NCBI RefSeq assembly: GCF_018446385.1
Contig: NC_055987.1
Span: 83,757,418-83,821,417 of the forward strand
Direction: 5' to 3'
DNA: 64,000 bases
Source: Zingiber officinale
Taxonomy: Eukaryota > Streptophyta > Magnoliopsida > Zingiberales > Zingiberaceae
Position numbers and translations under genes: made by a program. Below the pieces are notes generated by a model that saw only the letters and a list, made by a program, of their open reading frames with translations, did no database searches and was not told where the DNA came from. This document shows, one piece after another, positions 6,070-58,057 of this stretch; within the stretch, counting starts at the first letter, position 1; every line of letters begins with the position of its first letter.

Positions 6070-6436
6070 AATTAATCCTATTTAGATACATTTCTCAGTC
6101 CTTAGCCGGTTGTCTATTGCAAGAGGGAACCGACAACTTTCTACATGTTTGGCAATTGAGGGATAAGAATTGGTGAACCATTTACATTCAAGAAATCTTA
6201 CAAAGAAACCGAAACTCCTAGAATCTTCCTTTATCATAACCCAAAACTCTAAACTCTTGTTTGTTGATCTTTAATATTAGATTTGTTTACCTTTACTTTG
6301 CTTTTGAAACGATTGGATAGTTGTTTAGCTAATTCGCATTGAGACATTTCTAGTGCTTATTCCAGTCCCTGTGGATACGATAATCTTTTATATTACTTGC
6401 GACATTTCCGTACACTTGCGGAGAGTAACAAGTTTT

Positions 6437-16056: not shown

Positions 16057-18025
16057 TGTTAGTTAGAGCCCTAGAGCCAATCATTTGATGATTGTATGGA
16101 CTCATGTATATCATATTCTTGTATATATATTAAGGCATTTGGTTTTTTGGTTATTATGCTTATTTGTATTAGTGCCAGATAAAATAAGTATAGTAACGTC
16201 CTTGAGTAGAAGGTTCTTACCTATATCAATCGATTGGTTGAATCGATAGTGAGATGATATAGGGAACACTACTCTAAATCATTCCTAGTCGAGTATTAAC
16301 ATTCAGGGACAATGTTAATACAATAAGACTAGCATGTAGGTCAGCTCGATGACTTGATCTCACAAGTCATGGATATAGAGATATCAAGCTGACACATGGG
16401 TATGCATTAGAGAATGTATACTGAATGACCCGCCATGAGAAAGTATCATGGATCGTTATATGAGTGTCATATACTTTCTCATGTGGCTATTAGTATGACT
16501 ATTAGTCCTTTGACCTGAAGTCACCATGGATCCCTACATAAGGAGTTATGTACTTTGGTTTCGTCAAACGTCACCCGTAACAGGGTGGACTATAAAGGCG
16601 ATTACTGGGTATGTAACAAATTATGCAGAGGGATGTGAGTGATGTAGATGGGATCTATCCCTCCCATATGACCGGAGCGACATCAATATTCTTGATAGAG
16701 TTAGACCACGAAGTGCATGGCCATGCCCAAATGAGTCAACATTAGATGTTGAGCTCATTTGATCGAGTGAGTCTACTTGGAGTTCAAGATTTAGATTGAT
16801 TAGAGGATGACACAGTCTATGCCTCACATTGATCAATCTAGATGTCTAGGATAGAAGGACAATGTCATATATTGTGAGGAGTCACAATTAGTAGTCACAA
16901 GGTGATGTTGGATCTCGACATTTCTTGTAACTTGGGTAGTAATGATGTGTTGCTAGATACTGCTCATTACTTATGCTCCTAAATGGGTTTAGGGCATTGC
17001 CAACGTTACAAGAACCTATAGGGTCACACACTTAGGACATTTAGATGGAGATTTGATTCATATGATGAACCAAGAGGATTAGATTCATTTGATGAATCAA
17101 ATTGGATTAAGAGTAATCCAAATTGGGCTAATTGAGTTAGACTCAAGTTGATTCATGTATTTAATGAGTCTAATTTAGATTATGACTCATTAGATCAATT
17201 TAATTTAATGAATTAAATTCATTATATTAAGTTGGCTTGAATCAAATGGTTAGATTAGATCAACCATGAGAGAGATTGAGTCAAGTTTGACTTGACTAGA
17301 GAGGAAGAGGAAGAGTCAAGTTTGACTTGACTCTTTGCCACATCATGAGTGAGGTGGCAAGATGTGGACCAATGGTGTTGTTCCACGTCATCTTGTTTTG
17401 CCACCTCATGGAGGTTACAAGCCTCCATTGCATTTAATGTGGGTTGGCCACATTAAATGAGTGGAGGTTACTCATTTGCCACATCATTGTGAGGTGGCAA
17501 GATGTGGACCAATGGTAATGGTCCACATCTTCATGATGTGCCACATCATAGGAGTTACACAACACCTCTTAATGGCTTCACATTAATTGTGATTAATGTG
17601 GAATGGGAGTTACACTCCATGGAGTGGCCGGCCACACAAAAGTGGTGAATGAAATTTGATTTTATTCAAGGCATTACTTCTTCTTCTTCTTCCTCAAGAG
17701 AGCTCTCTCCCTTTCCTCCTCTTGCCGTGACCACACAAGGTGCTAGCACACCTTTTTTGTGTGTTTTCTCCACCTACGTGTTCGTGTGGATACTTCTAGA
17801 GGAGTATCTATTTTGATACTCTAGAGATCCGGCAATTCCTTGGACGAGCGGGAACGCGAAAGGGCACGCTTCGAAGGTATAACTCTCATCTAGTGTAGAT
17901 CTAGAGTCTTTGAAACTCGTACTCGTAATTTTTCGTTTGGTTTTCCTTGCACGGATCTACGGCTTTGGGTGATTCGGGGTTTCCGCGATGCGAAAAGCGG
18001 TTTTCGCGGCCTGAAAAACCCAACA
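16057..18025 (+). repeat. Copia-2 5' LTR
   Basis: It begins TGTTAGTTAGAGCCC and ends GAAAAACCCAACA. It contains two direct copies of the segment GAGGTGGCAAGATGTGGACC (near 17351 and 17493). Its last 150 bp are GC-rich and include GAAAAGCGGTTTTCGC, able to form a hairpin. Confidence 0.95.
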
Positions 18026-18026
18026 G

Positions 18027-19668: not shown

Positions 19669-20223
19669 ATGACGTCGAATATGAACGCTTTCTCCCTGCG
19701 TTCTGTCCTTAAGAAGGACAAGCTCAACGGAGCAAATTTCCTGGACTGATACAGGAACCTGAGAATAGTTCTCACTCAGGAACGTAAACTATACATTCTG
19801 GAGCACCCCATTCCGGAGGCTCCTCCTGCCACTGCCACGCGAGCTGACCGGGATGCTTACAAGAAGCATCAAGATGACGCATTAGATGTGTCCTGTCTAA
19901 TGCTCGCAACCATGAACTCTGAGCTTCAGAAGCAACATGAGTTGATGTGTGCTTACGATATGGTTGAACATCTTTGTCAACTATATCAAGGACAAGCAGG
20001 GCACTGGAAGAGGAACTTCACAGGATACCTGGAAGATCTTAACAAGAAGAGAAATAAGATTTCTACTTCAGGTATAAATGTTATAGAAGTCAACCTCTCT
20101 ATTTCTTCGTCGTGGGTATTAGATACCGGATGTGCTTCGCACATTTGTACTAATGTACAAGCACTGAGAAATAGCAGAGCATTGACAAAGGGTGAGGCAA
20201 TGGAGCACGGGTTGTTGCTGTAG
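19669..20223 (+). pseudogene. Copia-2 gag and protease remnant
   Basis: ATG at 19669 opens a copia gag, with the family N-terminus SLRSVLKKDKLNG. A TGA at 19747 replaces the conserved Trp of the NFLDW block. Between YQGQ and GHWKRN, near 19996, most of gag is deleted: the zinc knuckle is reduced to its last half (GHWKRNF). The protease active site DTGCASHIC follows at about 20123, with both catalytic residues. The frame ends at TAG 20221. Confidence 0.85.
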
Positions 20224-22639
20224 GGACTTATTTTCTATCTCTGCCCTCTGGGCTTATACTAGAGTTAGACGATTGTTGTTATGTGCCTGTATTGACTAAG
20301 AACATTATATCAGTTTCTTGTTTGGACAAGAAAGGATTCTCGTTTATAATAAAGAACAAATGTTGTTCTGTCTATTTAAACGATATGTTCTATTGTAGTG
20401 CACCTCTGATGAACGGACTCTATATTCTAGACCTTGAGAGCTCTATCTATAATGTTAGTACCAAGAGGTTCAAATCGAACGATATGAACCACACCTATCT
20501 CTGGCACTGTCACTTAGGTCATATAAATGACAAGCGCTTATCCCAGCTCCATAAGGATGGTTTGCTGGACTCATTTGATTTTGAATCATATGATATATGC
20601 GAGTCATGCCTACGAGGCAAGATAACCAAGACTCCCTTTAGTGGGCACAACGAGAGAGCGACAGATTTATTAGGACTCATACATAGTGATGTATGTGGCC
20701 CTTTCAATGTCGCTGCTAGAGATGGTTATAGATACTTCATCACATTTACTGATGACTTCAGTAGATATGGTTATGTGTACTTGATGACACATAAGTCCGA
20801 ATCCTTTGAAAAGTTCAAAGAATTCAAGAATGAAGTACAGAACCAGCTTGACAAGAGTATTAAAATACTTCGATCAGATCGAGGTGGTGAATACTTAAGC
20901 CATGAGTTTCGTGACTATTTAGCTGAGTGTGGGATTCTATCCCAACTCACTCCTCCTGGAACACCACAGTGGAATGGTGTATCCGAAAGGAGGAATCGTA
21001 CCCTATTAGATATGGTACGATCTATGATGAGTCACACAGATCTTCCGACATATCTATGGGGATATGCTCTAGACACGGCAGCTTTCATACTCAACCGAGT
21101 TCCATCAAAAGCCGTGATAAAGACACCATATAGGATATGGACTGGGAGAGATGCCCAGGTGTCTTTCATGAGAATTTGGGGTTGTGAGGCTTACGTTCGA
21201 CGTCAAGTCTCAAACAAATTAGGACCCAAATCCGACAAGTGCTATTTCATCGGATATCCCAAGGAAACTAAGGGATATTACTTCTACATTCTCAGTCAAC
21301 ACAAGGTAGTTGTGGCAAAGACTGGGGTCTTTCTAGAAAGGGACTTTGTTTCTAGAAAGACTAGTGGGAGCACGTTCGATCTTGGAGAAGTTCAAGATGC
21401 GAATACTAGCACTGAAGCCTCGATGGAAATTGAACTGGAACCACAAAGTGTTGTGGATGATGTTGTTCCACAAGGAGTTGAGGAACAACAACCAGTTCAA
21501 GTAGACATACCTCTTCGCAGATCTGATAGGGTACGTCGTCAGCCTGAGAGATACTCATTTCTCTTGTCTGACCATGATGACATTGTGCTCATAGAGGATG
21601 AGCCTACCACCTATCAGGAAGCTGTGATGAGACCAGATTCCGAGAAATGTATAGAAGCCATGAGATCCGAAATGGATTCCATGTACACCAACCAAGTATG
21701 GACTTTGGCTGATCCACCTGAAGGGGTAAAACCCATTGGGTGTAAGTGGGTCTTTAAGAGAAAGACTGACATGGATGGACTTATCTATAAGGGTCGCTTG
21801 GTAGCTAAAGGTTTCAAGCAGATTCATGGTATTGACTATGATGAAACTTTTTCTCCAGTAGCGATGTTTAAGTCTATTCGGATCATGCTTGCTATTGCAG
21901 CCTACCATGACTATGAGATATGGCAGATGATGTCAAAACCGCGTTTCTGAATGGAAACCTACTCGAGGATGTGTACATGACACAACCTGAGGGTTTTGTA
22001 GATCCACAGCATACTAGCAGAGTATGCAAGCTGCATAGGTCCATTTATGGACTAAAGCAAGCTTCTCGGAGCTGGAATCTTCGATTCGATGATGCAATCA
22101 AATAGTTTGGTTTTATCAAGAATGAAGATGAGCCTTGTGTCTACAAGAAGGTTGTAGGGGATATAGTTGTCTTCCTCATATTGTATGTGGATGACATACT
22201 ACTCATTGGGAAGGACATCCCTATGCTTCAGTCTGTCAAGACCTGGCCAGGGAGTTGCTTCTCAATGAAGGACTTAGGTGAGGCATCCCGCATTCTAGGG
22301 ATACAAATCTATAGAGATAGATCTAAGAGATTGCTTGGCCTAAGTCAGAGTACATACATTGACAAGGTACTCCTACGGTTTGCCATACAGAACTCCAAGA
22401 AGGGATTTCTGCCGATGTCACATGGCGTGAGTCTTTCGAAGACTCAAGGTCCCTCTTCTAGAGAGGAGAGAGACCGCATGGATCAGATCCCTTATGCCTC
22501 AGCCATAGGATCGATCATGTACGCCATGCTATGTACTCGACCTGATGTCTCGTATGCTTTGAGCATGACGAGCAGATACCTGTTAGATCCAGGTGAAAGT
22601 CACTGGATAGCGGTCAAGAATATTCTTAAATACTTATGA
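20224..22639 (+). pseudogene. Copia-2 pol: integrase and reverse transcriptase, frameshifted
   Basis: A long open stretch (20283-21950, 555 codons) carries the pre-integrase zinc region (WHCHLGH, CESC), integrase DDFSRYG and SDRGGEY, NGVSERRNRTL, the C-terminal RVRRQPERYSF block, and the first reverse transcriptase motifs to WQM. A one-base deletion near 21928 breaks the family [11 protein letters not shown] block and shifts the frame. A TAG at 22103 then stands where the related copy at about 58680 still has CAG. The catalytic YVDD is at 22184-22195, and a TGA at 22637 ends the region. Confidence 0.93.
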
Positions 22640-22988: not shown

Positions 22989-24951
22989 TGTTAGTTAGAG
23001 CCCTAGAGCCAATCATTTGATGATTGTATGAACTCATGTATATCATATTCTTGTATATATATTAAGGCATTTGGTTTTTTGGTTATTAGGCTTATTTGTA
23101 TTAGTGCCAGATAAAATAAGTATAGTAACGTCCTTGAGTAGAAGGTTCTTACCTATATCAATCGATTGGTTGAATCGATAGTAAGATGATATAGGGAACA
23201 CTACTCTAAATCATTTCTAGTCGAGTATTAACATTCAGGGACAATGTTAATACAATAAGACTAGCATGTAGGTCAGCTCGATGACTTGATCTCACAAGTC
23301 ATGGATATAGAGATATCAAGATGACACATGGGTATGCATTAGAGAATGTATACTGAATGACCCGCCATGAGAAAGTATCATGGATCGTTATATGAGTGTC
23401 ATATACTTTCTCATGTGGCTATTAGTATGACTATTAGTCCTTTGACCTGAAGTCACCATGGATCCCTACATAAGGAGTTATGTACTTTGGTTTCGTCAAA
23501 CGTCACCCGTAACAGGGTGGACTATGATTACTGGGTATGTAACAAATTATGCAGAGGGATGTGAGTGATGTAGATGGGATCTATCCCTCCCATATGACGG
23601 GAGCGACATCAATATTCTTGATAGAGTTAGACCACGAAGTGCATGGCCATGCCCAAATGAGTCAACATTAGATGTTGAGCTCATTTGATCGAGTGAGTCT
23701 ACTTCGATTTCAAGATTTAGATTGATTAGAGGATGACACGGTCTATGCCTCACATTGATCAATCTAGATGTCTAGGATAGAAGGACAATGTCACATATTG
23801 TGAGGAGTCACAATTAGTAGTCACAAGGTGATGTTGGATCTCGACATTTCTTGTAACTTGGGTAGTAATGATGTGTTGCTAGATACCGCTCATTACTTAT
23901 GCTCCTAAATGGGTTTAGGGCATTGCCAACGTTACAAGAACCTATAGGGTCACACACTTAGGACATTTAGATGGAGATTTGGTTTATATGATGAACTAAG
24001 AGGATTAGATTCATTTGATGAATCAAATTGGATTAAGAGTAATCCAAATTGGGCTAATTGAGTTAGACTTAAGTTGATTCATGTATTTAATGAGTCTAAT
24101 TTAGATTATGACTCATTAGATCAATTTAATTTTATGAATTAGATTCATTATATTAAGTTGGCTTGAATCAAATGGTTAGATTAGATCAACCATGAGAGAG
24201 ATTGAGTCAAGTTTGACTTGACTAGAGAGTAAGAGGAAGAGTCAAGTTTGACTTGACTCTTTGCCACATCATGAGTGAGGTGGCAAGATGTGGACCAATG
24301 GTGTTGTTCCACGTCATCTTGTTTTGCCACCTCATGGAGGTTACAAGCCTCCATTGCATTTAATGTGGGTTGGCCACATTAAATGAGTGGAGGTTACTCA
24401 TTTGCCACATCATTGTGAGGTGGCAAGATGTGGACCAATGGTAATGGTCCACATCTTCATGATGTGCCACATCATAGGAGTTACACAACACCTCTTAATG
24501 GCTTCACATTAATTGTGATTAATGTGGAATGGGAGTTACACTCCATGGAGTGGCCGGCCACACAAAAGTGGTGATTGAAATTTGATTTTATTCAAGGCAT
24601 TACTTCTTCTTCTTCTTCCTCAAGAGAGCTCTCTCCCTTTCCTCCTCTTGCCGTGACCACACAAGGTGCAAGCACACCTTTTTTGTGTGTTTTCTCCACC
24701 TACGTGTTCGTGTGGATACTTCTAGAGGAGTATCTATTTTGATACTCTAGAGATCCGGCAATTCCTTGGACGAGCGGGAACGCGAAAGGGCACGCTTCGA
24801 AGGTATAACTCTCATCTAGTGTAGATCTAGAGTCTTTGAAACTCGTACTCGTAATTCTTCGTTTGGTTTTCCTTGCACGGATCTACGGCTTTGGGTGATT
24901 CGGGGTTTTCGCGACGCGAAAAGCGGTTTTCGCGGCCCGAAAAACCCAACA
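22989..24951 (+). repeat. Copia-2 3' LTR
   Basis: It is nearly identical to 16057-18025, apart from scattered substitutions and a short deletion at about 23527. It ends AAACCCAACA and is followed by the TSD GAGCA. Confidence 0.95.
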
Positions 24952-24956
24952 GAGCA

Positions 24957-26440: not shown

Positions 26441-27698
26441 GATCTAATGTATAAAATAACACATAACGCAGTGGAAAAATGATCCCTCCAGAGATCCTTA
26501 TGAATACTGTATACTATATTTTCTTACTCTATCAGATAGAATAGGTATCTTTGTTGCGTGAACGGGTACTCCCGACAACAACTTTGATTTAGATGTAGAT
26601 CTCGGTGCGATTAGTATGTCCACACCTTTACGATATCTACACGAACATGTTCTCCATTCGCCTCACGAATTCATGACTCGGAGAAGAAACAACCTTTGTT
26701 GTGCTAGCAACTACACAAGGTTGGTTTTTTTGGCCAAGAGAAGAAGAGGAAGAAGAGCAAAAACCAAGAAGATTACCATCACCCAAAAGGTTACTTCACC
26801 TATATAAGGTGACTTCATAAAAGGGTTACTTTACCAAAAATATTACTTCACCAAAAGGTTACTTTACCAAAAAAGTTACTTTACCAAAAAACGATACTTT
26901 ACCAAAAAGGTTACTTCACCAAAAAGGTTACTTCACCTAAAAGTTACTTTTACAAATGACTTTTGTACTCATCCAATGAATACAAAATATTTTTATCTCT
27001 TGATCTTCTTTTTGATTAATGATGTATTAATCTCTATTAATATTCATTAATCTTAATGGATTGGACTTAGTATATTGCATTAACTCAATACGCCATTAAC
27101 CCAATAAATCAATGAGTCTAACCCAATAAATCAATGAGTCTAACCCATTACTCAATGAGTCTAATCTGAATTCATTTGAGTCTAACTCAATGTGTATAAT
27201 TCATATTAGACTTAACCCTATAATTCATCTCCAACTCAACATGTTCTTTGTGTGTGATCCAATAGGCTCTCGTAACGTTGGCAATATATCTAAAACAATT
27301 TTAGATACATAAACAATGAGTGACATCTAGCAATGCATCAATGCTACCCAAGTGAAGAAAATGTCGAGATCCGACCTAATCTTTCCGTATCTATTATCTT
27401 GTATGACTCAATCCTTCTATCCTTGATATTTAGATTGATCAATGAGGCATATATTGTGTCATTAATCTTTGTATTTTTTAATCTCTAAGTGGACACATTT
27501 AATCAAATAAGTTCAATATCACATATTGACTCATTTGAGCATGATCATGCATTCTTGTGTCCTACTAATCAAGAGGCCCACAAATATCACTTCTATTATA
27601 TAGAAGGGATATATCTATCTACATCACTCACATCCCTCTGTATAATTTATTGCATACCCAGTGATCGACTTTATAGTTCATCTTGTTATAGGTGATGT
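26441..27698 (-). repeat. Diverged Copia-2-type LTR in reverse orientation, first part
   Basis: Order and wording follow the reverse-orientation solo LTR at 4182-6069 (GTTGTGCTAGCAACTACACAAGG, AACGTTGGCAATAT, GATCAATGAGGCATA, CATCACTCACATCCCTCTG) but with many differences. It is an older subfamily. It is interrupted at 27698 by a solo LTR and resumes at 29669. The left end is not cleanly defined. Confidence 0.65.
26775..26955 (+). repeat. Short tandem repeats, unit GGTTACTT(T/C)ACCAAAAA
   Basis: About nine imperfect copies of a 15-18 bp unit lie in the diverged LTR. The homologous part of the Copia-2 LTRs lacks the array, so it expanded locally. Confidence 0.8.
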
Positions 27699-29663
27699 TG
27701 TTAGTTAGAGCTCTAGAGCCAATCATTTGATGATTGTATGGACTCATTGTATCATATTCTTGTATATTAATAAAGGCATTTGTTTGGTTATTATACTTAT
27801 TTGTATTAGTGCCAAATAGACTAAGTATAATAGCGTCCTTGAGTAGAAGGTTCATACCTATATCAATCGATTAGTTGAATCGATAGTGAGATGATATAGG
27901 GAACACTACTCTAAATCATTCCTAGTCGAGTATTAACATTCAGGGACAATGTTAATACAATAAGACTAGCATGTAGGTCAGCTCGATGACTTAATCTCAC
28001 AAGTCATGGATATAGAGATATCAAGCTGACACATAGGTATGCATTAGAGAATGTATACTGAATGACCCGTCATGAGAAAGTATCATGGATCGTTATATGA
28101 GTGTCATATACTTTCTCATGTGGCTATTAGTATGACTATTAGTCCTTAGACCTGAAGTCACCATGGATCCCTACATAAGGAGTTATGTACTTTGGTTTCG
28201 TCAAACGTCACCCGTAACTGGGTGGACTATAAAGGCGATTACTGGGTATGTAACGAATTATGCAGAGGGATGTGAGTGATGTAGATGGGATCTATCCCTC
28301 CTATATGACAGGAGTGACATCGATATTCTTGATAGAGTGAGACCACGAAGTGTATGGCCATACCCAAATGAGTCAATATGAGATATTGAGCTCATTTGAT
28401 TGAGTGAGTCTACTTGGAGTTCAAGATTTAGATTGGTCAGAGGATGACACGGTCTATGCCTCACATTGATCAATCTAGATGTCTAGGATAGAAGGACACT
28501 TGTCATATATTGTGAGGAGTCACAATTAATAGTCACAAGGTGATGTTGGATCTCAACATTTCTTGTAACTTGGGTAGCAATGATGTATTGCTAGATGCCG
28601 CTCATTGCTTATGTTTCTAAAGGAGTTTAGAAACATTACCAATGTTACAAGAACCTATTGGGTCACACACAAAGAACAAGTAGATGGAGATTGGGTTCAT
28701 ATGATGAACCAATTGGATTGGGTTCATATGATGAACCAATTGGATTCAAATTAGACTTATTGAGTTAGACTCAATTAGATTCAATTGTTGAATGAGTCTA
28801 ATTTAGATTTGATTCATTGAGTCAATTTATATTAATGAATGGAGATTCATTAAATTAAAATTGACTTGAGTCAAAGGTTGGATTTAACTCAACAAGGAAG
28901 ACAATTGGTCAAGTTTGACTTCACCAAGTAGAAATTGAAACATCATGTTTGACTTGATGTATTGCCACATTATAAGGATGACTCATCCTTGCCACATCAC
29001 CTCCACCTCATGAGACATGCCACCTCATGGGGGTTACACTCTCCCCTTGGCTTTAATGTGGCTGGCCACATTAATGGGGAGGTTACAATGTTGTGGCCGG
29101 CCACACTAATGCAAAGGAGGTTTTGTTTTGTTGCAATTGATGTGTGGTAATTGTCTTATCTTCTTCCTAGCTTTCTTCCTCCTCCTTGCTGCTGTTGCCG
29201 TGAACTTCCAAGAGAGGAGAAGGTGGTTGAGTAAATTCCAAGACCAAAGGAAGAGTGAAGGTCACAAAGGAGGGATACTACTTCTTGAGTGTATGAGTTT
29301 CTTTTGTACTCTCTCTTTTTCTTCCTTTCCAATTCCATCCGAGAGCTCTAGAAAGTGCTAGCACACTTGGGGCTCTCCTCTCCATCCTTGAGTGCTAGAG
29401 AGCACTCCTTGTTCGTGTGGATATCACTAGAGAAGTATCTATCTTGATACTTTGGAGATCCGACACGTACCTTGGACGAGCGGGATTTGCGAGGGCACGC
29501 ATCAAAGGTATAAAGTATTTTCCTTTGTAGATCTACTGTAGATCGTTGTTTATAACTCGTACTTGTGTTTTCAAAATTTTTCCTTGCACGGATCCTACGG
29601 CTTTGGGTGATTCGGGGTTTCTGCGACGCGAAAAGCGGTTTTCACGGCCCGAAAAACCTTACA
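27699..29663 (+). mobile_element. Solo LTR of the Copia-2 family, forward orientation
   Basis: A 1965-bp unit runs from TGTTAGTTAGAGC to GAAAAACCTTACA, flanked by GATGT at 27694-27698 and 29664-29668. It resembles the Copia-2 LTRs but diverges in the 28600-29400 part and has a tandem duplication of TTGGGTTCATATGATGAACC near 28690-28745. It lies inside an older LTR of its own family in the opposite orientation. Confidence 0.93.
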
Positions 29664-32121: not shown

Positions 32122-32976
32122 TGTTGGTGTAGGGAGCACTAGATGATCGAACCTAAGTTTTGAAAATGGCAAAGAATTCTAAGTTAAGTGTTATTATTGT
32201 TCTAATAAGTTGAATTGAGTGTACATGAAAGTCTTAAGTGATCTTAGGCAAAGGGAAAACCCTAATGAAGTCTTAATTTAGGGGACTGAAGAATGTCTTG
32301 GCGAGCTGATGATGTTGGGCGAAATACTAGAGTTGAAGATGCTAGGTAAAAATCTTGGGAGTCGCAGACACCTGGCGGAAGACTGGATGGGTCATAGATC
32401 GGACTCCCGGCAAAAAGTCCTGATGTCTCGGACGCTGAGCAAAAGTCCAGACGATCTGGTAATAGATAATCTCTCCTAAGAGGAGTAGGTGAGGACACGC
32501 TCCCTAAAGAGGGAACAGTATGGGTCGATTTGACCTAGAGTTTTAGCGAAACTCAAAGTCAAGACCCGATAGTCTAAAGACTGTCAAATTCATACTTTAT
32601 ATATATTATTTATTTCCTGGACTAACTTTTTGTTTTTACAGAAAGTCAAGTGCTATAAAAAAGTAGTCCGTGCCCAGAGTTGCTATGGGCACCCGGGAAA
32701 GCTTCAGAGAAGCAATAGTCCAAACGGGTACTTGGCCAGGCACCGAGCGCTCGGAGGTGCTCCGGGCGCCCGAATGACCAAAATCTAATTGACACGCTGA
32801 GTTGGAGTGTGACAACTGGCCCACCCATGTTAGGGATGAAGTTTCGACGAGAGCTCACCATGTCAGCACAATCTAAGCACCCAAGAAGGAATCTAGGTGC
32901 CCAAACAGGACTATAAAAGGAGGCTTCGACCATCAGCTTTAACACATCATTTCAATCATCTTCCACTCCTACATGT
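32122..32976 (+). repeat. Copia-3 5' LTR, first part
   Basis: It starts TGTTGGTGTAGGGAGCAC and aligns with 51375-52330. It is cut at 32976 by TRIM-X and continues at 40568. Confidence 0.85.
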
Positions 32977-33914
32977 TGTTGGACCCTTGGGTGGCCGACT
33001 AGAGGGGGTGAATAGCCCTGTAATAAAAAACCGAACCTTCCTCCTCGAACTTTTATAGCTTAATTAAAATGATCACTTGCATAAATAAAAATAAGAGATT
33101 AAAAGAAGAGGCACGAGGGATTTACTTGGTTATAACCGGGGAGGTTGTTGGTCCAAGGAAGTTAAAAGCACACTAATATCTCCTTTAGGCAGACAAGCCT
33201 CTTTACAGCAGTTAACACACTCAATTACAGAATAGAACTCAAGAGGATTCAATTACAAGTGTTGTATTTCATTTCCTAGGTCTAGGGGTCTTTCTATAGC
33301 TCCTGAAAAATCTTATCCTAGGCTGGAAGGCGCCTCCAACATAATGGAAGGCACCTTGAATGAGGTAACAAGGGATAAAGTTTTATCCTTTGACAACGGC
33401 AAAATTTGCCTAGTCGAAGGCGCCTTCAAGTGATTGAAGATGCCTTCCATGAAGTGTTGAAGGTGCCTTCAAGTGCTTGAAGGCACCTTCCACCAGAAGG
33501 TTGTGAGGCACCTTCAATCCATTGAAGGCGCCTCCAACAGCTACTACCGAGCTTAAAACTTCTCCTTTTGCCCTTCCACTGCTCCGCTCACTTAGGTGAT
33601 TTCGTCCAACCAGAATAGGGCTCACCTGAACCCATTTTCTGGCCTTTTCCTTGAGCAGTCATCCTCTTGGCTTCTCATCCCTCAAATTGCTGCTCACATC
33701 CTTCTCATTCGCCGGTATACTCTTCTACAGCACCTCATCCCTCAAACGCACATAGCTCGTCGACTCTCTCCCGTGCTATCCTTCTCGCTAGCTGCGTCTC
33801 TCGCTTGACTTCCTGTGCTCCTAAGCTCTTACACACTTAGACACAAAGATTAAATACTAACAGGACCTAACCTGACTTGGTTGATCACATCAAAAATACC
33901 ATGGGGTACAAACA
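32977..33914 (-). repeat. TRIM-X LTR, uninterrupted copy
   Basis: It begins (plus strand) TGTTGGACCCTTGG and ends GGGGTACAAACA. It shows the unoccupied CACTA target at 33627-33642 (GGGCTCACCTGAACCC). It contains the GAAGGCGCCTTC cluster at 33330-33535. Confidence 0.88.
33325..33540 (+). repeat. GAAGGCGCCTTC palindrome cluster in TRIM-X LTR
   Basis: About ten variants of the palindrome GAAGG(C/T)(G/A)CCTTC, spaced 10-30 bp apart, lie in about 210 bp. A matching cluster is at 34770-34980 in the other LTR. Substitutions inside the units are often C/T or G/A. Confidence 0.8.
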
Positions 33915-34417
33915 ATCTCCCCCTTTTTGATGTGATCAAATCCAAGTTAAGTTAGTGTAAACTACAAACAAATAATAGTTATAAAATTTTTTTTTACGAG
34001 TACACAAAAATTTGTTGTACTACCTTCCCTCTAGACTTACTCCTCCTTTTGATCACATTAAAAATGGGGCACTTCAAAAATTTCTCCCAGAGCTCCTAGG
34101 TAGACTCGTAGTCTCCGATTCAGTTGACTTCTTATGGCTGTAAAACACTCAGCAGATGGAACTCTGCTTTACCATTTGCCATGAAGTTGACCTACTCTTT
34201 CTTCATCCATTAATATTCTTCTTCTTCCTTAGATGCTACAAAACCAAATTTCATTATTAAAAGCAAATCGAAATCAATTTTAAAGAATACCTTCATCTTT
34301 TTCTTCCAGCTCGCGAACTCCCCCTCGAACTTCGGTGGGTAGATGCTCAGTCCGGTCATCTCGTGTGCTTCGTTCGGCCGTTAGTCCTCTTGAAGCGAAC
34401 TTGGATCTGATACAAAT
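33915..34417 (-). other. TRIM-X internal region, non-coding
   Basis: 503 bp lie between the LTRs. Apart from the purine tract (33915-33935) and the primer-like site (34402-34417) I see no gene. Confidence 0.7.
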
Positions 34418-35070
34418 TATTAGACCCTTGGGCGGCCAGCTAGAGGGGGGTGAATAGCCCTGCAATAAAAAACCAAACCTTCCTCCTCAAACTTTTATAG
34501 CTTAATTAAAATGATCACTTACATAAATAAAAATAAGAGATTAAAAGAAGAGGCACAAGAGATTTACTTGATTACAACCGGGAAGTTTGTTAGTCCAAGA
34601 AAGTTAAAAGTACACTAATCTTTCCTTCAGGTTGAGAAACCTCTTTACAGCAGTTAACACATTCAATTACAGGATAGAACTCAAGAGGATTCAATTACAA
34701 GTGTTGTATTTCATTTCCTAGGTCCATGAGTCTTTTTATAATCCCTAGAAAATCTTATCCTGGGTTGAAAGACACCTCTAACATGCTGGAAGGCACCTCC
34801 AGTGAGGTAAAAAGGGATAAAGTTTTATCCTTTGCCAACGGTAAAATTTGCTCAGTCGAAGGTGCCTTCAAGTGATTGAAGGCGCCTTCCATGAAATGTT
34901 GAAGGCGCCTTCAAGTGCTTGAAGGCGCCTTCCACTAGAAGGTTGCGAGGGCACCTTCAATCTATTGAAGGCACCTCTAGTAGCTACTACCAAGCTCCAA
35001 ACTTCTCCTTTGGCTCTTCCGCTGCTCTGCTCGCTTGGGTGATTTCGGCTAACCAAAATAGGGCTCACCC
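34418..35070 (-). repeat. TRIM-X second LTR, left part
   Basis: It aligns with 32977-33630. It is interrupted after GGGCTCACCC by the CACTA element and continues at 40282. Confidence 0.88.
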
Positions 35071-35098
35071 CACTACAACAAAAACCTTCATAGACATC
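35071..35098 (+). repeat. Left terminal inverted repeat of the Pack-CACTA element
   Basis: It starts CACTACAACAAAAACC and continues TTCATAGACATC. It is the inverse of 40251-40278 with two mismatches. Confidence 0.93.
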
Positions 35099-35400
35099 GG
35101 TTTTCCACCGGTGTCTATTTCATTTTCGACCGATGTCTATGAAGCTGATGTTAAAAGTCTGCCATTTTAGACATCGGGTTAAAACCGATGTAGTATCACT
35201 TAACGACACCGGTCTTCGAATCGGTTATTAACCGGTGTAGTATCACTTAACGACACTGTTTCATCAACGGTGTAAAACTGATGTAATATTGTATGTTAAT
35301 AACACCAGTTTTGGCAGCGGTAAATGACCGATGTAATATTAGTTAATAACACCGGTTTTACAGCGGTGAAAAACCGATGTAATATGTATATTTTTTAACA
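35099..35400 (+). repeat. Left subterminal repeats of the Pack-CACTA element
   Basis: About five related units of roughly 50 bp share ACCGATGTAGTATCACTTAA or ACCGATGTAATATTAGTTAA with AACACCGGTTTT. CACTA transposases bind such subterminal arrays (family knowledge). Confidence 0.85.
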
Positions 35401-36029
35401 GCACAATTTAATTTCCGAAACAATGAAAAACCGACAATAACAAAAAAAAAATACACAAATATTCACAAATTATACAAATATTCTTCATTCAATAATATCC
35501 ATAAAATACACAAATATTCACAAATTATATAAATAATCTTCTTACAAACATTCTTTTTACATCAAAAGCTAGCTAATAGATATCAAAATCAAGGTAGAAC
35601 ATTCTTTTAACACATCAAGGTAGAACCGCACTTCAAATGTAATCTAGCATGCATTCAGCCCACTCGAACCGCACTTCATCAATTTCAACTCTGGAGTACT
35701 TGAGATTTGTAAACTGTAAAAACACATAAATCCACCATATGTCAAATAACTAAAACAAATGTGTACATGTATCAAATAAAATAGAATACTGAGTTTTTAA
35801 AGGCTGCTGTGGAAGATAACGAATATAACATAGAATCTAAAACTTTCATATATGACACTTAGTATATGCTGCTTAGAATATAACATAGATAATTTGCTCC
35901 TTCTAATTCAAGTGTACAGATTGATAAGAACCGACAGCATCATACAACAACTTACTAGGCATGATAATGGTTGAACAAAGAAATATGACTACACAACAAA
36001 TCCAGTGAAGGAAGCATAGAAGAACAAAG
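35401..36029. other. AT-rich interior of the Pack-CACTA element, nothing recognised
   Basis: There is no ORF and no recognisable gene match. A direct repeat of ATACACAAATATTCACAAATTATA occurs near 35450 and 35510. Confidence 0.5.
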
Positions 36030-36067
36030 CTACCTCTGATGAAGAGATATACTATTTATTGTACTAC

Positions 36068-36368
36068 CTCTGATGCCATCTTGGTATCCTGAATATCCTC
36101 CAGGCAGAGATAATCCTCCAGAACTGATGCTTCTTCCCATGTTACCACTGCCAACAATGTTGCCTACAGAGCTTGTAAGTCTTGGCCCTACATTACCTAA
36201 TACCGGAGAAACTCCCAAACCAGGAACAGAACTACGATTCCCAGAAGCTGAACTTGAGGAAATACCAGTTATTGACCCAGTGACTTCATTAATATTACTA
36301 CAACTAAAAGCATGATTTCCAACAACATTAATACCCCCTCTATTTGTGACACCAGAGCCATGAGGCAT
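36068..36368 (-). pseudogene. Captured NOT2/VIP2-like exon C
   Basis: The minus-strand frame reads PHGSGVTNRGGINVVGN, NRSSVPGLGVSPVLGNVGPR and GRSISSGGLSLPG, the Gly/Ser-rich N-terminal region of CCR4-NOT complex subunit 2 (NOT2, called VIP2 in Arabidopsis). The exon is preceded by an AG acceptor (TTCATGTAG) and followed by GTAGTA as a possible donor. Its frame continues that of exon B. The last residues after SLPG do not match what I remember of the family, so the 3' edge may be altered. The conserved NOT2/3/5 C-terminal domain is absent. Confidence 0.8.
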
Positions 36369-36462
36369 CTACATGAAAAAAAATCCAAAATCAATACTAT
36401 AAAACACATTCAAAGGACCATATGATGCAGTGAAGTAATGTGGAAATAAGCTCATGCCAGAC

Positions 36463-36641
36463 CTAAGATAATGCAACCAAAAGATTGTTTGATGAGAACC
36501 GTCCACTAGGAATGCTTCCTCCTGGTTGCTGAACACCACCTGATGGTACAACACCCATTGCGGCCTCTCTGGATGCAAGCGAACCAGGCACATTTGGTAG
36601 GTTGAAGCTTCCATGAATATTATGCAATCCTTGAAGACCAC
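36463..36641 (-). pseudogene. Captured NOT2/VIP2-like exon B with premature stop
   Basis: The frame reads GLQGLHNIHGSFNLPNVPG, VPSGGVQQPGGSIPSGRF and NNLLVALS, matching the second block of plant NOT2/VIP2. It is bounded by an AG acceptor and a GT donor. The final codon before the donor is TAG at 36463-36465, where the family has Gln (CAG). One C-to-T change would therefore truncate any spliced product. Confidence 0.82.
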
Positions 36642-36730
36642 CTATTTTTTTACAAACCGTAATCAAAATTCCACATACAAGAAAAATTTCACATGAATAT
36701 GTTAATAAAGTTTATGTAGGAATGTCTAAC

Positions 36731-36863
36731 CAGAAGGATGGAACCCAGGCACTGCCGCAGACTGGCCAGAAAATAATGTGGTATAGGGTCGGCCTGAGGA
36801 GTCCGCAAGATTAGATGTTGAACCATTAAGAGTTGACTGTACCAAGAGACTCAGTAATTTGAT
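36731..36863 (-). pseudogene. Captured NOT2/VIP2-like exon A
   Basis: After a TTTTGCAG acceptor the frame reads STLNGSTSNLADSSGRPYTT and FSGQSAAVPGFHPSG, the N-terminal block of plant NOT2/VIP2. It ends at a GT donor in the phase that joins exon B. Order and spacing (A at 36.8, B at 36.6, C at 36.2 kb) show capture of genomic DNA with introns, not of a spliced transcript. Confidence 0.82.
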
Positions 36864-37754
36864 CTGCAAAAGCAAGACTAGTAAAAGCACAGGGCATGGG
36901 CTAGGTGCTAACAAACTTGGTATGCTAACCAACAAGAAAGAAACAACCGCGTCAAGTTAGTATTTACATAAACTGTATTGAACATCTGCACCAAACAACG
37001 AAAGCTACTCATCTCTAACAATTGAAACTCAGCTAAGAATAAGGAATTATATTATTAATACCAAGAGTAAAATTACATCAGATACAAATCCCATACATAA
37101 AATAACAGATAGGTAATTTGGGATGAATATTGAAGTCTATAACTATTTATTCTACTTCTCTCCATCAAGCTAGAACATAATGGAGCATAGACATTGATGG
37201 TGCTTAGTTTGTCAAGTTGTACTCAATAAAGATTTGAGTAGCACTTTAGATATTAAGTTAGAAAATCATATGAAGTGGCTACACTGGTAGCCGCTAGAAG
37301 AATAAATGATGCTAGTCATACTATAAATACTGAAGACTTGTTTAAAGTACTACTAAAAAATTTCTTAGAAATAAAGATTATAATGCAATGTTTTTATCTT
37401 CAAAGGAGAAACTGTAACCATAAGATGTAAGTGATTGGCTTCAGAGCCCAATTACAACCTAACCAAAAGTGATTCCTTCTTCCTTTTTTTTCCCCATGAA
37501 GAATAAATTAAGCGAGTTAGAAAGACAAGATTTTATCTGGAAACACTCCCAAAGTAAAGCAGGCATGCATTTGTATTAATTTAAGATGACAATCTATGGC
37601 AAGCCCAAAGACAACTAACAAATAAAGGTTTTATCCTATACTCATGCATTATCACACTCCATGAGTCTAACCTCTGGCCTTTATACTCATGAAGCCAACA
37701 TCACTAATGAACAAGGTATCAAATATAAAAATGTCTCTAAAACTTCAAGCATAC
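36864..37754. other. Pack-CACTA interior between NOT2-like and MLO-like pieces
   Basis: About 890 bp of AT-rich sequence, probably NOT2 intron and unknown DNA. No further exon is recognised. Confidence 0.4.
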
Positions 37755-37829
37755 CAAGATAAAACCCTGACGAAGGGTAAGGTAGTCTGCCCGTACGACC
37801 GACTTTCCAAACTGACGAAAGAAATAAGT
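37755..37829 (-). pseudogene. Captured MLO-like exon (75 bp)
   Basis: The frame on the minus strand reads TYFFRQFGKSVVRADYLTLR followed by QGFIL. This resembles the MLO family block FFRQF..SV...DYLTLR.GFI in the cytoplasmic loop of these seven-transmembrane proteins. It is framed by TTATGCAG as acceptor and GTATGC as donor. Only this exon is seen, so it is a fragment with no function of its own. The match is from memory of the family; a search would settle it. Confidence 0.65.
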
Positions 37830-38045
37830 CTGCATAATGTGATGTGACGATATTAATAAAGGAAACAAGTAAGATACATTCCTAGGCTCTGTAAGATCAT
37901 TTAGGCAAAGAGCATTTACACCTATCATCCATAAACTGGAGTTAGGTGTTACCTTTGATAAGGAGTCTTATGTTGCTAGAGATTCTTGTATGCTTTTCCT
38001 AGTGTATTAAAAGTTCATACAAAATTTTGGATTTAAGGAACTTAC

Positions 38046-38129
38046 CACCCAAATGACAAAGCTATTTCTGCTCCAAGAATTTGACGAGTGGAACTTCATA
38101 AAGCTTGACTACCTTCTCATTGTCAATGC
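38046..38129 (-). pseudogene. Exon-like block of unknown origin in the Pack-CACTA element
   Basis: 84 bp lie between a GTTGATGCAG acceptor and a strong GTAAGT donor. One frame reads GIDNEKVVKLYEVPLVKFLE before a stop, and a shifted frame continues LGAEIALSFGW. I do not recognise the gene. The splice-site context suggests a further captured exon. Confidence 0.35.
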
Positions 38130-39090
38130 CTGCATCAACACTCTTATTAAATGTTTCATTTGCTTGACAGAGCACTAGAAGAAAGATACTTTCTTTGAAG
38201 AACAAAATGGCTTAAACTAGAGATGATTAATCACCTTTAATCGCTGATTTAGTTTTCCTATAGGCAAGTAGTAATTAGGCAAGCAACCTACTGAATAAAT
38301 CACATTCATTCTACTTTACTGCAGGGATGAAAAACTCACACTGCCTTATATCCTAATTCAATAATCAAAGTAAAAAACTGCAAGCCATCATAGCAAAAAA
38401 AAATTAACAAGGTTGTGTAATACCACAAACTTGGTGAAGGATCAATACACACAAGAGAAGATATAGAAACAAATTATTCAAACCATACAATTGGAAGAAG
38501 CGATTCTAACTTAAAAAATATGGGCATCAGACAAGTATTTGAGGAACAATAAAAGCAACTAAGCAAGATTCATCAAGAGGCTGAACTAATAATCACACTC
38601 ACCTAAGGTCCTGAACAACTAAACTAAAATATAGAAAGCCAAGTGAATCCTCAGGCAGCAGTCCTTGGCAAAAATTGCCAAAAAAAGTACGAATATTCTC
38701 GGTGCACCTCATCATACTGTCCTAGTTTTTTCCTCTACCTTCATGTAGCTAACTCTTCAGATTAAATAATCTAAAAGAAGATTGAAGGAATAACTATAAA
38801 CTTGATTGTTCTTCAGTCATTTCTTCTTCGTGGGTGGAATTCAGTTCTTAAGAGAGATTTCACTACTATATTATTTATATATGGTAGATCCAACTCAACA
38901 GTCAAAGTTTTCTAGTTCAACATAAATCAAAGAAGATCAGATAGAACAATTTAATTAGATACCGCTAATATGCATTTTGATCAAATGAAATCACTGGCAT
39001 AAATATATAAAATGGCGAGCATGTAAGAAAGCGCAACGATCGATAGTGCTAAAGAGATAAGGAAACAAACGGATTCGTGTGATCAGGATG
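38130..39090. other. Pack-CACTA interior between exon-like block and ERF gene
   Basis: About 960 bp, AT-rich, no gene recognised. On the minus strand this lies downstream of the ERF stop codon, so it may include its 3' UTR. Confidence 0.4.
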
Positions 39091-39729
39091 TCAAAAGCAG
39101 AGAATCGTGGCTTGGATGTCGTCATCGGGGGAAGGGAGAAGGTTAAGATCAAACGGAAGTGTATGCCGGTATGTGGAAGCGATGTCACGCTCGTCGTCAA
39201 CGACGGAGGCCGATGACCCGCAGTCACTGTGGCAGTTTTTGTCGTTGTCTGGAATTCTCTGGGGAAGTGGTTTGGCCTTCTTCTCTAGCTGCGACACACA
39301 TCGGCGGCTCAGCGTCGCGAACGCAGGCGCAGGAAGACGTGGCCTACCGAAGTACTCCACGGTGCTGCTGTGGCTGCTCGATGTCGGCCGTTGCAGAGAG
39401 GACGGCGGGGGGTCATGGTGGTCGTCGCAGAAGGGAAACCGGGCGGAGGGAGGGCAGCATAATGCAGGAGTAGGGGTGGGAGACGCAGCAGCGGCGGCGG
39501 CGAGGGGAAAGTTGGTCTTGGCCTTGGAACCACGGAACGCGCGAGCGGCGGAGTCGTAGGCCAGGGCGGCAGCCTCGGCCGAGTCGAAGGTTCCGAGCCA
39601 CACCCTGACCTTCTTCCAGGGGTCCCTGATCTCGGTCGCGAACCGCCCCCACGGCCGCTTGCGCACGCCGCGGAACCGCGTCTCCGCTACTGCCGTCGCC
39701 GGCTCCACCAGAACTCGGCCTTTCTTCAT
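39091..39729 (-). CDS. AP2/ERF transcription factor, class II repressor type with EAR motif (212 aa)
   Basis: This encodes a nuclear DNA-binding protein expected to bind GCC-box promoters. The chosen start (Met-Lys-Lys-Gly) places the AP2 domain at residues 18-75: [20 protein letters not shown], then [20 protein letters not shown] and [14 protein letters not shown]. The [10 protein letters not shown] and WLGTF residues mark the ERF subfamily. Ala, Pro and Ser-rich segments follow, and FDLNLLP near residues 193-199 is a DLNxxP EAR repression motif, as in ERF3/ERF4-like proteins. The frame is also open to an upstream ATG at 39798, but that 23-residue extension is not family-like. There is no intron, as usual for this class. 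It is GC-rich against AT-rich surroundings and lies entirely inside the Pack-CACTA element. Whether it is expressed is unknown. Confidence 0.9.
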
Positions 39730-39861
39730 CTGGCCAACAGATCGACGGAATGAAAAGGAACAAAAGAAGGGGGAAGAGGGAGCGAGAGATGGGATCAAAG
39801 GAAGAGGAGTGTTGATTTCGCCATGTCGAATTATTCAAAATTGGGGAGATAAATTAGCTGG
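39730..39861 (-). promoter_or_regulatory. Upstream region of the ERF gene inside the Pack-CACTA element
   Basis: Only 550 bp separate the ERF start from the transposon end, and part of this resembles another gene's 5' end (39862-39937). No clear TATA box was found here. Any promoter would have to be short, captured, or provided by the transposon end or the surrounding LTR. Confidence 0.3.
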
Positions 39862-39937
39862 TTACTTCATCCACACGAACCAGTAGACCGCGACAGCGCC
39901 GACGACGGCCGCCGTCCACATCGCCGTCGAGATCCAT
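39862..39937 (-). pseudogene. Possible captured 5' fragment of a C-24 sterol methyltransferase (SMT2-like) gene
   Basis: The minus-strand ATG at 39921 gives MWTAAVVGAVAVYWFVWMK then a stop. The hydrophobic AVYWFVW run resembles the membrane-anchor N-terminus of plant SMT2 proteins as I remember them. An ATG at 39937 is in another frame. CCCTAATCC-rich sequence to its right looks like a plant 5' UTR. It is too short for certainty. Confidence 0.3.
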
Positions 39938-40059
39938 TACACGTCTTTCAAATGGTAACTCCTAAAAGGAGGATGTCGGAGGATTAGGGTTTCGATTTAC
40001 GGTGGGCGAGGAGAAACCCAAAAGAAAGGGCGCTAAGAAAGTCCGCTAGAATTTTGGTT

Positions 40060-40250
40060 CATAGACACCGGTTTTAAAAACTGCGGTTAAAATTGGTGTC
40101 TATTAATGAAAAAAAGGTGCTCATAGACATCGGCTAAAAAAATCGATGTCTATGAGCGAAAATCTGCGCTCATAGACACCGGTATTTGAAAAAACCGGTG
40201 TAAAATACTCAAAGACATCGGTTTTTGCTTAAAACTGTTGTTGTTCCACT
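40060..40250 (-). repeat. Right subterminal repeats of the Pack-CACTA element
   Basis: Several copies of CATAGACACCGGT and CATAGACATCGG occur in both orientations, separated by A-rich spacers. They mirror the left end. Confidence 0.85.
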
Positions 40251-40278
40251 GATGTCTATGAGGGTTTTTCTTGTAGTG
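40251..40278 (-). repeat. Right terminal inverted repeat of the Pack-CACTA element
   Basis: On the minus strand it starts CACTACAAGAAAAACC. TSD CCC follows at 40279-40281. Confidence 0.93.
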
Positions 40279-40281
40279 CCC

Positions 40282-40567
40282 GAACCTATTTTCCAGCCTT
40301 CTCCTTGAGAATCTTCCTCTCAGCTTCTCATCCCTCTGATCGCCGCGTGCATCTTTCTCGTCTGCTGGTGTACTTTTCTGCAGCACCTCGTCCCGCAGAC
40401 GCACAGAGCCCATAGGCTCTCTCCCATGCCATCTTTCTTACTAGCTGCATCTCTCACTCGACTTCCTGTGCTTCTAAGCTCCTTCACACTTAGATACAGA
40501 GATTAAATACTAAGAGGATCTAACCTGACTTGGTTGATCACATCAAAACTACCACGGGATACCAACA
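40282..40567 (-). repeat. TRIM-X second LTR, right part
   Basis: It continues the LTR cut at 35070 (GAACCTATTTTCCAGCC versus GAACCCATTTTCTGGCC at 33637) and ends GGGATACCAACA. Confidence 0.88.
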
Positions 40568-57764: not shown

Positions 57765-58057
57765 TTCTGGCGCGCTCACCGGGCTTAGGTCCCCGGATCA
57801 TACCACCATCCCAGAACATATCTTGTTTGATTCTGGCGCGCTCACTGGGCTTAGGTCCCCAAATCATACCGCTATCCCAGAACACATCTTGTTTGTTTCT
57901 GGCGCGCTCACCGGGCTTAGGTCCCCGGATCATACCATCATCCCAGAACACATCTTGTTTGATTCTAGCGTGCTCACCGGGCTTAGGTCCCCGGATCATA
58001 CCACCATCCCAGAACATAAATTAGCAAGCTCCCCAGGCTTAGGTTCCCGGTTCATAC
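57765..58057 (+). repeat. 66-bp tandem repeat array (four units plus a partial fifth)
   Basis: Units start at 57765, 57831, 57897 and 57963, an exact 66-bp period. Each holds TTCTGGCGCGCTCACCGGGC, TTAGGTCCCCGGATCATACC and CATCCCAGAACA. A diverged partial unit follows at 58018-58057. Because 66 is divisible by three, both strands stay open as repeat-peptide ORFs, which I do not regard as genes. Confidence 0.93.

Follow-up and report, generated by a model that had tools for sequence, protein, structure and literature searches.

The window analyzed here, i.e., a stretch of 64,000 nucleotides of the Zingiber officinale genome, harbors a non-autonomous CACTA element of 5,208 bp (35071–40278). Very probably, it is a Pack-CACTA of a large ginger family, which captured an ERF gene along with pieces of other genes and multiplied, the cargo being a silenced passenger. 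Judging from the mutations only, the copies would be silenced by DNA methylation; the copy in the window is most likely a young, still-open one and not a working gene. The initial annotation had proposed a Pack-CACTA with a complete ERF and several pieces of host genes, and the donor locus, the junction of the captured pieces, the empty insertion site, and the copies elsewhere all agree with this proposal. The absence of its own transposase, the captured host coding DNA, and the multiple copies of the composite characterize the element as a Pack-CACTA. Its terminal inverted repeats (TIRs), 3-bp duplication, subterminal arrays, and a related element with Transposase_21 place it in the CACTA (En/Spm) type.

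Ends, Insertion Site, and Family of the Element

The CACTA-type ends CACTACAACAAAAACCTTCATAGACATC and CACTACAAGAAAAACCCTCATAGACATC are identical at 26 of 28 positions, as noted initially, and the TIR arms extend further, to 31 nt at 90% identity (left TIR, the 3' end of the element in the cargo orientation, 35071–35101; right TIR, its 5' end, 40248–40278). The CCC duplication could be read directly beside both ends (35068–35070 and 40279–40281), in agreement with the empty site. Likewise, the predicted subterminal arrays of TAGACAYCGGTTTT-like units were found inward of both ends: on the left at 35085–35385 (repeat families D1, D3, and D4) and on the right at 40051–40270, where repeat analysis was combined with comparison with the 5' ends of the family. 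The outer 218–228 bp of the right end displayed 89–91% identity in all five fetched loci holding a family 5' end. A search of the 3.09-Gb ginger genome with the 28-mer (up to three mismatches) returned 3,412 and 3,380 matches, i.e., thousands of places, vs. 0 and 0 for the reversed control.

The joined flanks of the element (34411–35070 and 40279–40567) align without a break, at 85.7%, with 32970–33914 on the plus strand, where a paralogous copy of the host repeat carries no insertion. Lying 1.4 kb away from the window copy, it represents the empty site. A chance origin of the ends is ruled out by this uninterrupted alignment together with the zero matches of the reversed control. Additional empty sites were recovered (L030–L033 and L035). 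In the haplotype comparison of the left flank, the top non-self match reached 87–88%, and no allelic flank was present among the best 40 of 18,639 candidates scored.

The earlier statement that the element lacks a transposase holds for the catalytic gene: none was recognized by eye among the 16 ORFs of at least 60 aa overlapping the element, and the ORFs submitted to Pfam yielded AP2, Mlo, or nothing. Still, the statement needs to be amended, since the element retains, on the minus strand, the 3'-terminal exon native to the family, splice acceptor included (35633–35731, ...FTNLKYSRVEIDEVRFEWAECMLDYI*). This exon was recognized from family loci and the ends of the models P0139 and P0148, and it is present at 91–99% identity in six of six fetched family loci holding a 3' end. 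A 21.7-kb relative (C1:7367607–7389346) has the same ends with a GTA duplication and encodes Transposase_21 (E 1.1e-74) and DUF4218 (E 9.1e-41), its own activity not being claimed. Retroelement-like frames are also discernible in it by eye.

Composition of the Cargo

The cargo is chimeric, comprising the head of SMT2, a whole ERF, two MLO exons, and three NOT2/VIP2 exons, all in one orientation (minus strand), as originally described. The relatives of the NOT2, MLO, and SMT2 pieces were identified at the protein level, and the donor of the ERF in DNA.

The ERF coding sequence (39091–39729, minus strand) was correctly recognized as complete: a single open ATG-to-stop frame encodes 212 aa. On the chromosome, this sequence occupies C2:83796508–83797146. 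It includes the AP2/ERF DNA-binding domain (residues 18–75, 39505–39678; Pfam AP2 E 8e-12, matched by sequence to AtERF1, 2gcc/1gcc) and, near its end, DLNLLP (residues 194–199, 39133–39150), an EAR-type motif. The combination of an AP2 domain and a DLNxxP motif within one frame is that of an EAR-type ERF.

The three NOT2/VIP2 exons were confirmed by comparison with the ginger VIP2 protein P0133. They lie on the minus strand at 36099–36368 (P0133 residues 102–191, 93%), 36454–36642 (with a stop in place of a Q of the donor protein), and 36729–36854 (P0133 residues 1–42, 90%). The MLO-like exon (FFRQFGKSVVRADYLTLRQGFI, 37752–37850, minus strand) was supported by Pfam (Mlo, E 3.7e-7) and by the ginger model P0131. 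The block at 38046–38150 on the same strand is indeed exon-like but can now be assigned: alignment with P0131 and translation identify it as the preceding MLO exon, carrying an in-frame stop in this copy. The model P0131 joins both exons, its residues 1–53 aligning to 38309–38046 and its residues 25–80 matching Pfam Mlo at E 5.7e-14. Reading 38065–38211 as one frame of a separate gene was rejected: it gave nothing above the Pfam cut-off and is MLO in another frame.

The possible SMT2 start proved to be real, but only as a short head of the gene (39868–39937, minus strand) fused to the 5' leader of the ERF, as evidenced by protein alignments and by the junction read. The proteins P0127–P0130 align to 39933–39868/39880, and P0128 (ginger 24-methylenesterol C-methyltransferase 2-like) matches the head contained in P0009 (79%, with 23% of the query covered; E 0.03).

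Donor Locus and Capture

The alignment with the closest chromosomal paralogues, suggested in the initial annotation, led to a donor locus (L017 on C16) and its allele (L020 on C15), both matching the window segment continuously at 95–96%. The captured stretch of 1.5 kb (38374–39871, minus strand) includes 142 bp upstream of the ATG, the coding sequence, and 717 bp downstream; the ginger protein P0002 is the exact product of L017. The SMT2 and ERF pieces are joined at a short shared GATGAAGC. The initial annotation had named a finding that would speak against capture, i.e., these pieces adjoining one another in a locus devoid of the transposon ends; this was not borne out, L017 and L020 matching the ERF piece alone within the 8 kb fetched.

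That the cargo is a normal gene cluster of the chromosome, with the CACTA ends around it by coincidence or nesting, is virtually inconceivable. The intact ERF frame and the uniform orientation of the pieces are compatible with such a cluster, but it is rejected by the empty sites, by end-to-end copies of the same composite on other chromosomes, and by donor loci lacking the neighbors.

The history of the captured cargo can be read from the sequence as follows. An ancestral element took up the 1.5-kb stretch of the ERF locus, joined to the SMT2 head, plus the MLO and NOT2 pieces, and retained some 230 bp at the CACTA 5' end together with the family 3'-terminal exon and 3' end. The capture could have followed the route of tandem insertion and aberrant excision proposed for Pack-CACTA. 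The composite then proliferated, generating 3-bp target duplications upon insertion, the transposase probably being supplied in trans by same-ended relatives, of which one with Transposase_21 was found. In one derived form, the EAR half of the ERF was exchanged for a ribosomal P2 fragment.

Copies across the Genome

The genome search for further ERF copies, also suggested initially, revealed at least 12 copies (window included) spanning the whole coding sequence. The best 40 of 202 ERF candidate matches were scored and the best of them fetched, so the copy counts are lower bounds. Most of the whole-span copies are 95–98% identical to the window ERF. The frame is open in 5 of the 12 and broken in 7, the open share being probably too high because the best-matching copies were fetched.

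The SMT2/ERF junction occurs at 16 places genome-wide (control, 0) and in 14 of the 15 fetched copies tested, L027 being without most of the SMT2 piece. Seven copies run end to end (L011, L013, L015, L019, L021, L022, and L025). Matching 3-bp duplications flank nine of the ten both-ended copies, i.e., all end-to-end copies except L021, as well as L027, L028, and the window copy. In the derived form, the ERF EAR half has given way to the P2 fragment, which was identified in the corresponding part of L027 and L028. This form is commoner among the scored matches, where 21 end at the P2 break vs. 15 copies with the ERF C-terminal sequence. A rough age estimate from eight copies, at a rate of 6.5e-9 per site per year (PMC8342499), is 1.1–2.2 My with all changes counted and 0.2–0.8 My without C-to-T/G-to-A changes. 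The trees were poorly resolved, with the copies clustering apart from the donor at 71% and 75% support.

Some of this cargo has entered the ginger gene sets under gene names, which calls for caution. Thus, copy L015 encodes exactly P0001, named ERF3-like by NCBI, and 15 ginger models among the 120 NOT2 matches listed contain the NOT2 piece but not the full VIP2.

Selection and Mutation Pattern

The neutrality test on DNA included the 12 whole-span copies; the deleted or rearranged L022, L025, and L026 were left out, gapped positions were skipped, and the family majority served as a stand-in for the ancestor. Nonsynonymous changes made up 98 of 153 vs. 99.0 expected (P 0.87), those in AP2 amounting to 32 vs. 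29.5 expected. Because the copies share some changes (e.g., R91C and W38*), distinct changes were also counted once, with essentially the neutral proportions again: 84 of 133 nonsynonymous vs. 86.7 expected (P 0.65), and 26 vs. 25.7 in AP2. The five open copies alone gave 33 vs. 34.2 expected (P 0.77). Stops numbered 9 (6 distinct) vs. 3.5 expected.

Deamination affected 70 of 1704 site-copies in CG, 42 of 1164 in CHG, and 8 of 2052 in CHH contexts (CG + CHG vs. CHH, P 1.5e-17), and six of the seven changes in the window copy are C-to-T/G-to-A at CG or CHG. Such decay is the pattern expected of methylated DNA. The dN/dS of the ERF copies, which the initial annotation had proposed to estimate, was 0.60 when pooled and uncorrected, but this appearance of mild constraint disappears when the CG/CHG mutation spectrum is taken into account.

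The ratio of per-site rates inside and outside AP2 was 0.09–0.27 in ordinary genes of the lineage (seven comparisons) vs. 1.02 in the copies. A protein-only test of constraint agreed with the DNA test; here, the frame-shifted model P0019 was dropped before the count and poorly aligned columns were masked, and in the cleaned version four changes were removed by hand with the denominators unchanged. Overall, at the sequence level, no constraint is detectable in the evolution of the ERF cargo, the AP2 domain included; this applies to the copies as a group, a single copy having too few changes.

The dissemination of a working EAR repressor by the element, with some copies (the window one included) transcribed and repressing GCC-box promoters, and with copies kept by selection, appears very unlikely. 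Certain observations favor it and count against the silenced-passenger view, namely the open frames, the AP2 and EAR kept in the window copy, and the uncorrected dN/dS; the L015 product and a precedent from wheat (19 captured genes expressed with dN/dS < 0.4, according to the available part of PMC4290129) point in the same direction. Still, the nonsynonymous-to-synonymous proportions are neutral even in the open copies, the AP2 constraint typical of ordinary lineage genes is missing, almost nothing of the donor promoter was captured beyond the 142 bp mentioned above, and nine upstream ATGs precede the window ERF. The initial suggestion of a spreading regulator that might silence GCC-box promoters thus stands for the DNA, which did spread, but finds no support for the regulatory function in view of neutrality, CG/CHG decay, poverty in promoter sequence, and mostly broken frames.

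A related reading, in which the family would be a mobile source of regulators, with a few open AP2 + EAR copies and many EAR-less derivatives still containing the N-terminal AP2 part transcribed from the CACTA ends, seems very unlikely. The same low likelihood applies to its further parts: that the transcripts would splice into the family terminal exon, scattering repressor and EAR-less competitor versions of the ERF over the genome, and that these might affect genes of the ethylene response or, through siRNA, the donor genes for ERF, VIP2, and MLO.

An RNA route is rather unlikely as well; here, the ERF, NOT2, and MLO pieces would give rise to siRNAs and to antisense or hairpin transcripts targeting the copies and, in trans, the donors. 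It would fit the abundance of highly similar copies, and the CG and CHG decay is consistent with RNA-directed or maintained methylation. On the other hand, the decay shows no sign of reaching the donor, because only one of the nine coding differences between the donor alleles (alanine-tract length differences apart) is a CG transition.

The element offers an unusually complete record of capture, including the donor with its allele, the exact breakpoints, an empty site, a relative with a transposase, a dozen copies, and their mutation spectrum. It illustrates that an open frame in a captured transcription factor does not have to reflect selection, and it provides a neutral expectation, taking methylation context into account, by which other claims of captured genes could be tested.

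Comparison with Known Systems

A 3-bp duplication is typical for elements of the Pack-CACTA and Pack-TYPE kind; Pack-CACTA were reportedly the subject of work by Catoni et al. in 2019. A soybean CACTA with captured fragments, said to be named Tgm-Express1, was reportedly described by Zabala and Vodkin in 2007, and Tpn1 of morning glory is a CACTA with captured exons between its ends. The ginger element is similar to both in the location of its captured exons, but the soybean element and Tpn1 carry gene fragments, whereas the ginger one carries the whole coding sequence of a transcription factor.

The window ERF protein shares 93% identity with P0002 of ginger and 86% with P0004 of turmeric, both ERF3-like EAR repressors of Zingiberales, and all three combine AP2 with DLNLLP. 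Unlike the ERF3-like genes of Zingiberales, the window copy is transposon-borne and lacks the donor promoter, and the copies evolve neutrally. The ginger AP2/ERF family study credited segmental and tandem duplication (PMC8620233), and its main text, as available, contains no word beginning with "transpos". No earlier report of the ginger element or of a CACTA-borne ERF was recognized in the open-licence literature.

As far as the available part of PMC8903248 goes, the Pack-CACTA of Arabidopsis and the Pack-TYPE elements of rice and maize share with the ginger element the CACTACAA ends, the lack of a catalytic transposase, and the coding DNA gathered from several loci and spread in copies. The present case differs in its host and in that one captured coding sequence is complete and could be traced to its donor, its mutation pattern being followed over 12 copies.

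A precedent is wheat chromosome 3B, for which the available part of PMC4290129 reports a likely functional structure in 46% of 145 CACTA-captured genes, so a CACTA carrying a captured gene with an open frame is less unusual than was initially stated. CACTA capture, exon shuffling, and the presence of the same gene in several family copies are common to both systems. Most of the captured wheat genes are reported to be under purifying selection, more relaxed than that of other genes, whereas the ginger ERF copies display no detectable constraint. The ginger element is a well-documented Pack-CACTA of an already known kind, with a precedent in wheat.

Insertion Site and Size of the Family

The window corresponds to C2:83757418–83821417 of a genome that totals 3.09 Gb across 211 contigs; a passage of the publication on the haplotype-resolved ginger genome gives a size of 3.1 Gb (PMC8342452). 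The CACTA ends, target duplication, and subterminal arrays ascribed to the element (35071–40278) in the initial annotation were all borne out by the sequence check. The flanks of the element, when joined, align without interruption to the adjoining host-repeat copy (32970–33914, 85.7%) and, on the one strand tested, to five of seven further host-repeat loci (L030–L033 and L035); on that strand, no match ran through the joined site in L034 or L036. The insertion host is one of two neighboring copies (32970–33914; 34411–35070 plus 40279–40567) of a high-copy repeat containing GAAGGCGCCTTC palindromes, with 18,639 candidates in the genome; among the 40 candidates scored, no near-identical allelic copy of the flank was found.

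At three or fewer mismatches, the 28-bp end occurs 3,412 + 3,380 times in the genome vs. 0 + 0 for the reversed control; therefore, the family is large, probably numbering roughly 3,000 elements provided that most of them display both ends. Elsewhere in the window, a 1.4–2 kb segment occurs four times with 87–98% identity (16057–18026, 22989–24952, 27699–29086, and, inverted, 4707–6070), open frames at 19750–22639 resemble, by eye, a Ty1-copia polyprotein, and tandem arrays are located at 26786–26971 (unit of ~17 bp) and 57765–58016 (unit of ~66 bp).

Cargo and Its Donors

In the minus-strand sense, from the right end, the element consists of ~230 bp of the family 5′ end, the SMT2 head, the ERF, two MLO exons, three NOT2 exons, and the family last exon with the 3′ end. 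The exon-like block initially left unassigned is one of the MLO exons, joined to the other in the ginger gene model P0131, which scores as Mlo at 5.7e-14. A stop closes one NOT2 exon at the position of a Q in the donor protein, and a stop is also present in the first MLO exon. The annotated ginger models P0138, P0144, P0148, P0157, and P0162 fuse the NOT2 piece to K-box, Ras/LRR, ribosomal P0, and PF01795 portions, a pattern suggestive of either extensive exon shuffling or wrongly joined models.

The family 3′-terminal exon with its splice acceptor (35633–35731) is 91–99% identical in all six fetched family loci holding the 3′ end, and the gene models P0139 and P0148 terminate with it; it may represent a shared last exon for any captured sequence. 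The adjoining 3′ parts of the same members (window; L045–L049 and L052) are just 73–86% alike.

The ERF donor locus (L017, C16:10363509–10364141) encodes exactly the ginger ERF3-like protein P0002; L020 on C15 is read as its allele. The two differ at nine coding positions, including six transversions. Both match positions 408–1905 of the 5,208-bp element (window 39871–38374) at 95–96%, and the rest of the element has no match in the 8 kb fetched per donor locus, except for a second copy of 1711–1905: this 195-bp stretch, from the 3′ part of the capture, recurs ~1.3–1.4 kb downstream in both loci. The capture break on the SMT2 side sits within the short shared GATGAAGC; only 142 bp of donor sequence upstream of the ERF ATG were captured; nine ATGs precede the ERF start in its leader in the element. 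The turmeric protein P0004 agrees with P0002 at P7, G127, H140, and Q149, four residues where most copies differ, and the copies cluster apart from the donor in the trees with modest support (71% and 75%).

Copies and Derived Forms

In the genome search with the ERF, 40 of 202 candidates were scored, 43 matches were listed, and 20 stretches were fetched. The whole CDS is spanned by 14 of the listed matches (12 copies, including that of the window, and the two donor alleles), 21 end at base 287, six fall in three copies with deletions or rearrangements (L022, L025, and L026), and two represent a paralogue and its allele. Seven copies with the ERF C-terminal sequence run end to end (L011, L013, L015, L019, L021, L022, and L025, the sixth and seventh with internal deletions), as do the truncated L027 and L028; the others harbor later insertions or extend beyond what was fetched.

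In L027 and L028, the two base-287 copies read, element positions 837–1243 are replaced by ~890 bp encoding pieces of ribosomal protein P2 (P0124, 93–95%; Pfam Ribosomal_60s). Among the scored matches, the form with the EAR half replaced (these two plus another 19 matches that end at base 287) is commoner than the full-length one. Of the 16 occurrences of the SMT2/ERF junction, 14 lie in copies that retain the ERF C-terminal sequence and two in truncated ones. Since L027 retains the junction-derived TGGATGAAGC though most of its SMT2 piece is missing, the junction is likely the older state.

Decay of the Captured ERF

The ERF frame is open in five of the 12 whole-CDS copies (window, L009, L010, L015, and L016) and broken by stops, a frameshift, or a deletion in the other seven. 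The four open copies outside the window have domain or motif changes: DLSLLP (L009), R35K (L010), E52K, A70D, and F74C (L015), as well as G21D, V22M, and R29W (L016); judging from the AtERF1 domain, some of these positions matter for DNA binding. The window ERF departs from the family majority by seven changes (A12T, A32T, F90L, R91C, E164K, and two silent ones), six of which are C-to-T or G-to-A at CG or CHG.

Deamination-type changes make up 120 of the 153 changes in the 12 copies. Under that mutation spectrum, 98 nonsynonymous changes were seen vs. 99.0 expected at neutrality (P 0.87), with 32 vs. 29.5 in AP2; the five open copies alone gave 33 vs. 34.2 (P 0.77). With distinct changes counted once, 84 of 133 were nonsynonymous vs. 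86.7 expected (P 0.65; AP2, 26 vs. 25.7). In ordinary genes of the lineage, the ratio of per-site change inside to outside AP2 is 0.09–0.27, i.e., ~4 to 11 times lower inside (seven pairwise comparisons); the ginger paralogue L023 has 51 nonsynonymous differences from the donor allele L020, three of them in AP2. The neutral counts across the 12 copies weaken the suggestion that the element carries a functional ERF repressor, although sequence cannot prove that any one open copy is dead.

Among the site-copies of the ERF copies, deamination affected 4.1% at CG, 3.6% at CHG, and 0.4% at CHH; in eight whole elements, the counts were 109/2562, 88/2892, and 95/10969, respectively. In the protein-level control, it accounted for 16 of 53 one-step private changes in ordinary genes vs. 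46 of 63 in the copies. CG and CHG are contexts where silenced plant transposons stay methylated; the element has probably been silenced.

Mobilization and Relation to Known Pack-CACTA Elements

A putative transposase source for the family exists at C1:7367607–7389346, where a sequence with both ends as in the element and with a GTA duplication encodes Transposase_21 (E 1.1e-74) as well as DUF4218 (E 9.1e-41), along with frames judged by eye to be retroelement-like; activity of this copy is not claimed. We infer both a possible trans-mobilization of the element and the order of the captures. The cargo would have been assembled once and then spread by ordinary transposition, a scenario which fits the identical junction across the copies. 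Published accounts (PMC8903248, PMC13317346) propose that Pack-CACTA elements acquire their cargo through tandem insertion with aberrant excision.

The element shows those features of CACTA and Pack-CACTA elements that were tested. Like its cargo, that of maize Pack-CACTA is drawn from multiple loci (PMC8903248, Pack-TYPE section). According to a passage on wheat chromosome 3B (PMC4290129), 46% of the genes in 140 CACTA captures there have a likely functional structure, and 19 captured genes are both expressed and display dN/dS below 0.4; the ginger element likewise holds an open captured gene. Because of these precedents, CACTA elements holding such a gene count as a known kind, and what is new in the ginger case is the cargo, the species, and the completeness of the record.
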